Positions 15,166-40,350 of a DNA stretch of 64,000 nt are shown here, one piece after another. Under the pieces are notes generated by a model, which worked only from the letters and a program-made list of their open reading frames with translations, did no database searches and was not told the DNA's origin. Positions within the stretch are counted from its first letter, which is position 1, and each line of letters opens with the position of its first letter. The stretch is from Vicinamibacterales bacterium (lineage in GTDB: Bacteria; Acidobacteriota; Vicinamibacteria; Vicinamibacterales; 2-12-FULL-66-21). Both the position numbers and the translations under genes were made by a program. The stretch spans positions 1 through 64,000 of the forward strand of contig DASSPH010000099.1 in assembly GCA_035699745.1 (NCBI GenBank). The letters run 5' to 3'.

Positions 15166-15795
15166 GTGACGGCCCTTCGACCGAGCACAGGGCAGGCCAC
15201 GGAGCTTGCCCTCGACCCGGATCTGGAACTGGTCCGCCGGGCCCAGGCGGGCGACGTGGACGCGTTCGGCGACCTCGTCGAACGCAACCGCCGCGCCGTG
15301 TTCCGGGCCGCGCTGGCCGCGGTCGGGTCGGCGGTCGAGGCGGATGACGTGGCCCAGGAGGCGTTCGTGACCGCCTTCCAGAAGCTGTCGGGGTTCCGCG
15401 GCGAGTCGTCGTTCAAGACCTGGCTGCTGTCGATCACCTGGCGGAAGGCGATCGACCGGCGCAAGAGCGTCACCCGCTGGATGCAGCGCCTGGTCGCGCC
15501 GCACGCGTCGGCCGAGGGCGAGGAGTGGGATCCGATGCAGAACCTGCCGTCCGGCGCGCAGTCGCAGGAAGACGACGCGATGACGGCGGATTTGCAGCGC
15601 CGCGTGCGGCCCTTGATCGCATCGCTGCCCAGGAAGCTGCGCGACGCGCTGCTGCTGGCAGGCTCGGGCGATCACAGCTACGACGAGATCGGGAAGATGC
15701 TCGGCATCCCGACCGGGACGGTGAAGTGGCGCGTCTCGGAAGCGCGCAAGGTGCTGAAGCAGAAGATGGCGGCGATGGGGTACACGGATGTCTGA
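15166..15795 (+). CDS. ECF RNA polymerase sigma factor (first module)
   Basis: About 209 residues. Sigma region 2 (ELVRRAQAGDVDAFGDLVER, DDVAQEAFVTAFQKLSGFRG, SFKTWLLSITWRKAIDRRK) and region 4 (LPRKLRDALLLAGSGDHSYD, EIGKMLGIPTGTVKWRVSEA) are intact, with a Glu/Asp-rich linker between. It should direct polymerase to an extracytoplasmic-stress regulon and be held by the next gene, with which it overlaps by 8 nt. The start is not certain. GTG at 15166 sits 4-5 nt behind a TATAGA/CTATAG box and has no Shine-Dalgarno; an earlier in-frame GTG at 15139 also lacks one. Confidence 0.9.
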   Translation: MTALRPSTGQATELALDPDLELVRRAQAGDVDAFGDLVERNRRAVFRAALAAVGSAVEADDVAQEAFVTAFQKLSGFRGESSFKTWLLSITWRKAIDRRKSVTRWMQRLVAPHASAEGEEWDPMQNLPSGAQSQEDDAMTADLQRRVRPLIASLPRKLRDALLLAGSGDHSYDEIGKMLGIPTGTVKWRVSEARKVLKQKMAAMGYTDV

Positions 15796-16432
15796 ACGCG
15801 GATCGCGGCTCGGGGATCGGGGATCGCGGCTCGGGGATCGGGGACCGGGGATCGGGGATCGGGGTGCGGCACTGGACCGCGCGATCGACGGCGCGGTGCG
15901 ACAAATGCTCGACGTCGAGCCGCCCGCCGGGTTCCGGACGCGCGTCCTGCGTCGCATCGACGCCGATCGGCGTGTGGCGTCCGGCCGGCACCCGCTCCTC
16001 TGGCTCGGCGCGCCGCTGGCGGCCGCGGCGGCAATCGCGATCGCCATCCTGCTGCCGACGGGTGTCGAACCGCCGCAGGCTCCCGTCGCGCGCGTCGAGA
16101 CGCCGCCGGTACACGTGCCGCTCCCCGCGCCGCAGCCGTCCGCCGCGCCGGCTGCACGGACCACGACGCCACCACGGACGAGGCCGGCGGTGCGCCGCGG
16201 CCAGCGGATTGTGACCGCGGCCAGCGTCGCCGATGGCAGCGCCGACGCGCCTCTGCCAGGGTTCCCGCAAGTCCCGTCGCTCAGCGTTCCGGAGCTGAGC
16301 GTCTCCGAGATCCGGAGGGTGGCGGCGGTGTCCGCGCCCACGCAGCTTGGTGTGCAGCCAATCGCGGCGCCGGCGCCGCTCGACCTCGAACCATTGCCGT
16401 TGTCGCCGCGCGACCGGCAGGAGCAGGAGTAG
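15788..16432 (+). CDS. Putative membrane anti-sigma factor with repeat-encoded N-terminus
   Basis: 214 residues, overlapping the sigma gene by 8 nt, so coupled to it and probably its anti-sigma factor. Residues 4-25 are three heptapeptide repeats (RGSRLGD, RGSRLGD, RGPGIGD) translated from a heptanucleotide array. A short helical segment follows (ALDRAIDGAVRQMLDVEPPAGFRTRVL), resembling the sigma-binding region of non-zinc anti-sigma factors. One membrane helix lies at about 72-92 and a Pro-rich exterior of about 120 residues completes it. There is no HxxxCxxC zinc motif. The start is ATG 15788; an array-free alternative start is not obvious, so the array is probably translated. Confidence 0.75.
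   Translation: MSERGSRLGDRGSRLGDRGPGIGDRGAALDRAIDGAVRQMLDVEPPAGFRTRVLRRIDADRRVASGRHPLLWLGAPLAAAAAIAIAILLPTGVEPPQAPVARVETPPVHVPLPAPQPSAAPAARTTTPPRTRPAVRRGQRIVTAASVADGSADAPLPGFPQVPSLSVPELSVSEIRRVAAVSAPTQLGVQPIAAPAPLDLEPLPLSPRDRQEQE
15798..15867. repeat. Heptanucleotide array inside anti-sigma gene
   Basis: Ten consecutive 7-nt units with consensus GGGGATC (variants GCGGCTC, GGGGACC, GGGGTGC) and no phase break. Three units make 21 nt, so the array is read as a 7-residue repeat. It starts 10 nt after the anti-sigma ATG and just beyond the sigma stop codon. Confidence 0.9.
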
Positions 16433-16434
16433 TC

Positions 16435-16995
16435 ATGCAGAGAATGAAACTCGTTGGAATTGCCGTCGTTGCTGCGCTCGCGCTTCCCGTCGCGCTCGCA
16501 GCGGCGCAGGAGAAGCCCGGCACGGCCAAACCGCCGGCGGAGACGGCGGCGCCGGCGCGAGCGGTGCCGACCGAAGGCCTGCCCGTCAACGTCCGGCTCG
16601 AGATCACGATCACCGATCAACGCGGCAACGCGGAGCCAATCGTGAAGACCGTCACCAAGACGGTCGCCGACCGCTCCTGGATCCGCATCCGCACCGGCGC
16701 GGACGTGCAGACGAGAATGGGCATGCGTCCGGTCGTCCTCAACATCGATTCGTACCCGCGCGTGATCCCGACGCCTGGCACGCAGAACCCGTCGAACAAG
16801 CTGAAGGTCGATCTCACGATCGACTACCGGCCGGTCGCCGCCGAGGCGGACTCGGAGAAGAGCACGACGCCGAGCATCAACGAATCGCTGACCATCATTC
16901 TCGAGGACGGCAAGTCGATGGTGATTTCACAGTCGGCCGATCCCGCCACCGACCGCAAGGTCAGGGTCGAAGCGAAAGCGACGATCCTGAAGTAA
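16435..16995 (+). CDS. Exported hypothetical protein of ECF module
   Basis: 186 residues with a clear signal peptide (MKLVGIAVVAALALPVALAAAQ from residue 4) and a soluble beta-rich body: VNVRLEITITDQRGN, IRTGADVQTRMGMRPVVLNID, LKVDLTIDYRPVA, LTIILEDGKSMVISQSADP. It resembles small periplasmic proteins in which an N-terminal Pro/Ala linker leads to one beta domain; no named family is recognised. It begins 2 nt after the putative anti-sigma gene, so it is probably part of the same operon and may be the envelope sensor or a target. Its last 35 nt overlap the convergent glycerate kinase gene. Confidence 0.75.
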   Translation: MQRMKLVGIAVVAALALPVALAAAQEKPGTAKPPAETAAPARAVPTEGLPVNVRLEITITDQRGNAEPIVKTVTKTVADRSWIRIRTGADVQTRMGMRPVVLNIDSYPRVIPTPGTQNPSNKLKVDLTIDYRPVAAEADSEKSTTPSINESLTIILEDGKSMVISQSADPATDRKVRVEAKATILK

Positions 16996-32233: not shown

Positions 32234-32408
32234 CGGGTTTTACGGGTTTTACGGGTTCTACGGGTTCTTCGGGTTCTCCGGGTTCTCCCGGTTCAGGTTC
32301 TCCAGGTTCGGCTGATGCGACGGTGAACCCCGTAGAACCGTGAACCCGTAGAACCTGAACCCGGAGAACCCGAGGAACCCGAAGAACCCGTAGAACCCGT
32401 AAAACCCG
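32234..32408. repeat. Long inverted repeat built of 9-nt units after ispH
   Basis: From 32234 the + strand carries units CGGGTTTTA, CGGGTTTTA, CGGGTTCTA, CGGGTTCTT, CGGGTTCTC, CGGGTTCTC and decayed copies. From about 32324 to 32408 the complementary units run in reverse. The best pairing is 32243-32309 with 32342-32408: 67-nt arms with about five mismatches, the first 34 pairs perfect, and a 32-nt loop. It begins 35 nt after the ispH stop, between convergent genes. As RNA it would be a very strong hairpin in either direction and could end or protect transcripts. Confidence 0.9.
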
Positions 32409-32453
32409 TTGTGGAAGTGCCCCGGCTGACGGATGAGCCCGTGCGCCGCTCGA

Positions 32454-39761: not shown

Positions 39762-40217
39762 TTACAGCTTCCGCCGCAACTGCCGGATGGTGAGTCCCGT
39801 CACCGGGTCGACGAGATCGGGCGCAATCTCGCAGAGCGGGTCGAGCACGAAGAGGCGGTCGCGGAAGCGTGGATGCGGCACCTGCAAATCGGGGTCGTCG
39901 AGCACCTCGTCCCCCGCCAGGATCAGATCGAGATCGAGCGTGCGCGGCGCGCCGGGGTACGGGCGGGTACGACCGGTCTGCTGCTCGATGGTGCGCAAGG
40001 CATCGAAGATCTCGCGGACCGGCAGGTCCGACTCCCCCACACCCACGGCGTTGAGATAGGGCGGATCCTCTTCGAGGCCTGGGCCAACGGGCGCCGTTTC
40101 GATGATGGAGGAAATGCGGAAGTTGCGCAGAATGCGCGCGAGCGCGGCGGCAGCCATGCGGATGTTGCCATCCCGGGACCCCAGATTCGACCCGAGCGCG
40201 ACCGCTATCGCACGCAC
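39762..40217 (-). CDS. folK: 2-amino-4-hydroxy-6-hydroxymethyldihydropteridine pyrophosphokinase
   Basis: About 151 residues. Transfers pyrophosphate from ATP to the pterin precursor of folate. The family pattern is clear: VALGSNLGSRDGNIRMAAAA, ETAPVGPGLEEDPPYLNAVG, IEQQTGRTRPYPGAPRTLDL with DLDLILAG, and VPHPRFRDRLFVLDPLCEIA. The GTG start at 40217-40215 is directly preceded by a heptamer array, leaving no Shine-Dalgarno; a TTG three codons earlier would be inside the array. It is downstream of the ferritin-like and dksA genes on the same strand. Confidence 0.95.
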   Translation of the reverse strand: MRAIAVALGSNLGSRDGNIRMAAAALARILRNFRISSIIETAPVGPGLEEDPPYLNAVGVGESDLPVREIFDALRTIEQQTGRTRPYPGAPRTLDLDLILAGDEVLDDPDLQVPHPRFRDRLFVLDPLCEIAPDLVDPVTGLTIRQLRRKL

Positions 40218-40350
40218 AACTGGCAACCGCTAACTGGCTACTGGTAACTGGCTACCGGCAACCGACAACTGGCTACCGGCAACCGGCAACCGGCAACTGA
40301 CAACTGGCAACTGGCAACTGGCAACCGGCAACTGGCAACCGGCTATCGGC
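40218..40350. repeat. 19-unit heptanucleotide array between two genes
   Basis: Nineteen units in perfect 7-nt phase. The consensus is AACTGGC or AACCGGC with variants TACCGGC, AACCGAC, AACTGAC, AACCGCT and TACTGGT, and the last unit TATCGGC is at 40344-40350. The array begins at the base adjoining the folK GTG and contains, in its last unit, the stop codon of the upstream ferritin-like gene. It is therefore the entire intergenic region. Confidence 0.95.

Follow-up and report, generated by a model that had tools for sequence, protein, structure and literature searches.

The closest described systems are heptanucleotide repeats of other bacteria. The GGGNATC repeat of Xanthomonas and Nostoc is dispersed, mostly intergenic and forms quadruplexes in vitro (Rehm et al. 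2015, PMC4692102). In neuO of Escherichia coli K1, the number of repeats ranges from 3 to 53 across genomes, and 65.6% of genomes are in the off state (PMC13001214). The TAACTGA direct repeats of Beggiatoaceae and cyanobacteria have one fixed sequence and occur mostly in short sets (PMC4679880). The array described here lies in a 64,000-nt stretch of DNA from a Vicinamibacterales bacterium, which is referred to below as the window. It occupies the 5' coding end of a gene that overlaps the end of a sigma factor gene (Table 1).

The array and its presumed operon

Table 1. Features of the sigma factor locus in the window
Feature	Position	Strand	Basis or content
ECF sigma-70 family factor, 209 aa	15166..15795	+	Sigma70_r2, Sigma70_r4_2, TIGR02937, orthologues
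Putative membrane anti-sigma factor, 214 aa	15788..16432	+	ORF, start overlapping sigma stop (ATGTCTGA)
Heptamer array	15797..15866	+	Ten imperfect units, consensus CGGGGAT = GGGGATC, translated RGSRLGD RGSRLGD RGPGIGD
Perfect period-21 tract	15800..15844	+	45 nt, 2.1 copies of 3-unit block
G-quadruplex motif, five GGGG tracts, 3-nt loops	15833..15864	+ (coding strand)	G4-N3 pattern
Presumed sigma-binding helix (LDRAIDGAVRQML), codons 29-41	15872..15910	+	Alignment, predicted helix 23-41
Third gene of presumed operon	16435..16995	+	ORF, signal-peptide-like N-terminus, 2 nt past anti-sigma stop

The protein encoded upstream of the array gene matches Pfam Sigma70_r2 (E=3.4e-16) and Sigma70_r4_2 (E=7.6e-10) and NCBIfam TIGR02937 (8.7e-26), and has orthologues in six same-family genomes with 64-70% identity. 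Its GTG start is our choice of an in-frame codon near where the orthologue matches begin. The original prediction that the array gene comes after a sigma factor gene is confirmed by these matches to regions 2 and 4. The sigma gene ends in TGA (15793-15795), and its end overlaps the start of the array gene, an ATG, as ATGTCTGA; this adjacency and coupling of the two genes is conserved in relatives.

The product of the array gene is probably an anti-sigma factor, as judged by gene position and architecture only. It has no match to a known anti-sigma family in Pfam or NCBIfam, a fold search of the PDB with its model gave no match, and Pfam searches with all 24 aligned proteins returned only scattered weak matches, each to a single member. 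These 24 proteins have a common architecture, consisting of a tail, a helix with the pattern xAIDxxxRxM, an LRARV helix, a membrane helix and a Pro-rich region. The AlphaFold model, which is of modest confidence (mean pLDDT 66, pTM 0.24), places helices at residues 23-41, 49-63 and 69-88, of which the last is probably the membrane helix, and leaves the remainder largely unstructured; residues 1-20 have a mean pLDDT of about 51. The helix LDRAIDGAVRQML is conserved in orthologues that lack an array. The array precedes it, in agreement with the proposed order of array and sigma-binding helix, the binding role itself being presumed. In one relative (L097, genome G008), the anti-sigma gene appears to continue into a fused domain that is similar to the third gene of the operon (LEITIT...), an indication that the anti-sigma factor and the third-gene product may work together.

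The units of the array, read from 15797, are CGCGGAT CGCGGCT CGGGGAT CGGGGAT CGCGGCT CGGGGAT CGGGGAC CGGGGAT CGGGGAT CGGGGTG. The count of ten 7-nt units in codons 4-26 given in the original prediction therefore stands, with the proviso that they are not identical, and its heptapeptides are correct: the frame through the array is open and the ORF begins MSE RGSRLGD RGSRLGD RGPGIGD RGAALDRAID. TRF reports 15800-15864 both as 9.3 copies at period 7 (score 95) and as 3.1 copies at period 21 (93% match, score 109), making 21 nt the strongest periodicity. A long perfect run of identical units is absent, the longest perfect 7-nt tract being 19 nt (2.7 units). Dinucleotide shuffling of the window 30 times (1.92 Mb in total) produced no comparable array (at least 4 copies, TRF score of at least 50), and so the array is not due to chance.

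Heptamer repeats in the genome and in relatives

Within a 1.2-Mb sample of the genome there are 49 period-7 arrays (about 41 per Mb), together with 27 of period 8, 16 of period 9 and no more than five of each other period. Twenty-eight of the 49 lie mostly in DNA called non-coding, which makes up approximately 10% of the total; this count pools all units, and the genes were called by a simple codon-usage finder that made at least one strand error (RNase R). The units are varied, and the commonest family, to which that of the anti-sigma array belongs, accounts for only 6 of the 49. When the entire genome was searched by pattern, many contigs proved to contain GGATCGG-type arrays; the sample consisted partly of contigs already known to contain them, which could inflate the share of that unit. 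Hundreds of such arrays, mostly intergenic and of many sequences, are to be expected genome-wide. Since the class is distributed in this way, the array is not specific to the ECF regulon. In loci around the sigma gene, arrays of period 7-9 reach a density of 138 per Mb in Acidobacteriota, as against 8 per Mb in other phyla.

A higher-order period of 21 nt was considered as a special property of coding arrays, but this was not borne out: intergenic arrays of the genome likewise have best periods of 14, 21 and 35. The 21-nt block by itself therefore argues only weakly for selection on reading frame.

Other arrays are present in the window. The space separating two called genes at 40217-40343 is filled exactly by 18 units of a CAACTGG-type heptamer. 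Two arrays with a 9-nt unit, at 32234-32294 and 32329-32409, face in opposite directions (CGGGTTCTA and CCCGTAGAA) and have their variants in mirrored order; they lie between genes called convergent and form a long imperfect hairpin from tandem repeats.

Orthologues of the sigma factor were found among a set of 60 relatives, none of the same genus, and in named genomes, most of which are metagenome assemblies of Acidobacteria. Many orthologous junctions have no array, for example those of the same-family genomes G006, G008, G009 and G011, in which the tail before the conserved xAIDxxxRxM helix is about 5-13 residues long. Elsewhere arrays of other sequence are found at the same place. L103 (G052) carries CGAAGTC x9 inside the anti-sigma gene, in frame, with a 44-nt perfect 7-nt tract. 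L116 has TACGAGT x5 and L024 has AGGGATT x3 between the genes, where arrays are also found in L104 and L107. L100 has GGATAGG x10, classed as between the genes but extending over the sigma stop. Degenerate arrays inside the gene, seen by eye and below TRF detection, occur in L108 (GGGATCA-like) and L098. All intragenic junction arrays, the two clear ones (window and L103) and the two degenerate ones (L098 and L108), are in frame, which may be taken as modest evidence.

Two further features were seen in these relatives. In L103, a second heptamer array, GTCCGAA x4, lies inside the same anti-sigma gene, at +173 to +202 from the sigma stop. In L100 (G047), the C-terminus of the sigma factor itself is read from the GGATAGG array that spans the stop codon.

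Arrays are mildly enriched at the junction. Five were found at the strict threshold, where the remainder of the loci would give 1.1 (P about 0.006), and seven as against 2.45 at the loose threshold (P about 0.013), the baseline being all DNA of the loci and not gene borders alone, and the genomes being related and thus not independent. This enrichment may reflect only the position of the junction at a gene border.

Interpretation of the array

The array is quite likely to be a lineage-typical dispersed heptamer repeat that the gene tolerates in frame, the translated units forming a disordered tail ahead of the presumed sigma-binding helix. It is one copy of a dispersed heptanucleotide class that is abundant in this Vicinamibacteria-type Acidobacteriota genome, mostly at gene borders. 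Such a copy would have arisen or expanded immediately after the start codon in the post-sigma gene (we infer gain as the direction of change), at a site whose encoded N-terminal tail varies naturally in length and is predicted to be disordered. Translation would then yield a Gly/Arg/Asp/Ser-rich tail ahead of the helix. The array would have been kept in frame, its latest visible growth being by a three-unit (21-nt) block. The main effect is probably a near-neutral lengthening of the tail.

This depends on the array being translated. In L100, L104, L107 and L116, the array separates the sigma stop from the anti-sigma start, and in-frame starts are available past the array of the window, the nearest at codon 37 (GTG) and codon 40 (ATG), which could place the true start codon beyond an untranslated array. 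We regard this as highly improbable, as both codons fall within the conserved helix, whereas 11 of 26 orthologues, array-free ones included, start at -8 from the sigma stop, and a further five at -4. The conservation of a stop-overlapping start in array-free relatives supports translation from before the array, and the tail is very probably translated on this comparison of starts. A translated array could in turn act as a switch, slippage by one or two units causing a frameshift in the anti-sigma gene and releasing the sigma factor in a fraction of the cells. The unit length is not a multiple of three and the array sits at the 5' end of the coding region; AAGACTC heptanucleotide repeats switch neuO of E. 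coli K1 in this manner (PMC13001214), and L103 has its long perfect tract at the same place. In computed variants, the conserved helix is lost when one or two units are added or removed and is preserved when the change is by 21 nt, which bears out the claim that only multiples of three units hold the frame; with one unit more or two fewer, the frame would run on into the third gene. Against this, the 19-nt perfect 7-nt tract ranks 30th of the 49 sampled arrays, while the 21-nt tract is perfect over 45 nt. As perfect repetition extends furthest at 21 nt, copy number is most likely to change in frame-preserving steps. Moreover, the intragenic junction arrays are all in frame, as opposed to the predominance of the off state in neuO, the class is genome-wide and without a tie to regulators, and the authors of the GGGNATC study considered phase variation unlikely for that repeat (PMC4692102). 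The phase-variable ECF switch of the original prediction is thus not upheld: such a switch is possible but not favoured for this array, and we give it a low probability. L103 offers a better system for the idea than the array of the window.

A quadruplex in the mRNA or in the coding-strand DNA at the anti-sigma start might instead lower translation of the anti-sigma factor relative to the sigma factor. The G4-N3 pattern matches at 15833-15857 and 15840-15864 and was not found in 100 shuffles. The array gives the top two G4Hunter windows of the entire 64 kb (2.32), its ViennaRNA fold is much more stable with quadruplexes allowed (-53.2 kcal/mol, as against -27.9 without), and GGGNATC-type oligonucleotides form quadruplexes in vitro (PMC4692102). 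However, G-rich units are not found in every junction array of the other lineages (CGAAGTC, TACGAGT), and a quadruplex is therefore not a conserved property of the junction. In the genome sample only 19 of the 49 period-7 arrays contain a G-run of at least three, and no regulatory role was found in the published GGGNATC cases (PMC4692102). An effect of this kind, which is based on predicted folding, would appear rather unlikely. There is also a slim chance that the junction is a recurrent site of unrelated heptamer arrays, whose length tunes or switches anti-sigma output, giving a phase-variable ECF regulon in some lineages; L103, with its perfect tract in frame, would be the best candidate. 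The enrichment at the junction counts against simple tolerance of a dispersed repeat, in that the site may not be purely passive.

If it is no more than a tolerated dispersed repeat, the array illustrates clearly the conversion of dispersed heptamer repeats into protein sequence, and the conserved ECF locus offers array-free, intergenic and translated versions side by side. If length variation does occur, it would make a sigma-factor regulon subject to a heritable switch that operates at random; a literature search did not find such a repeat-length switch described.

Comparison with known heptamer repeats

The TAACTGA repeats (PMC4679880) resemble the arrays of this genome in being heptamer direct repeats that occur genome-wide, many of them near translation starts. 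They differ in their fixed sequence, as this genome contains many different units.

The closest likeness in sequence is to the GGGNATC repeats of Xanthomonas and Nostoc. Five of the ten units are GGGGATC in rotation and one is GGGGACC, and there are further matches to the pattern in the same genome. As in those repeats, a 7-nt GGGNATC-type unit forms heterogeneous arrays with at least four G tracts, and the arrays are scattered over the genome, for the most part between genes and close to gene borders (PMC4692102), all units being pooled in the present case. In contrast, the host here is a member of the Acidobacteriota, most arrays of its genome have other units, and the anti-sigma copy lies in a coding region on the coding strand, which is the rarer class among GGGNATC repeats.

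With neuO of E. coli K1, the anti-sigma gene shares a heptamer array in the 5' coding region and a full-length frame that exists only at certain unit numbers. Unlike that of neuO, the array in the anti-sigma gene is composed of heterogeneous units and has a dominant period of 21 nt.
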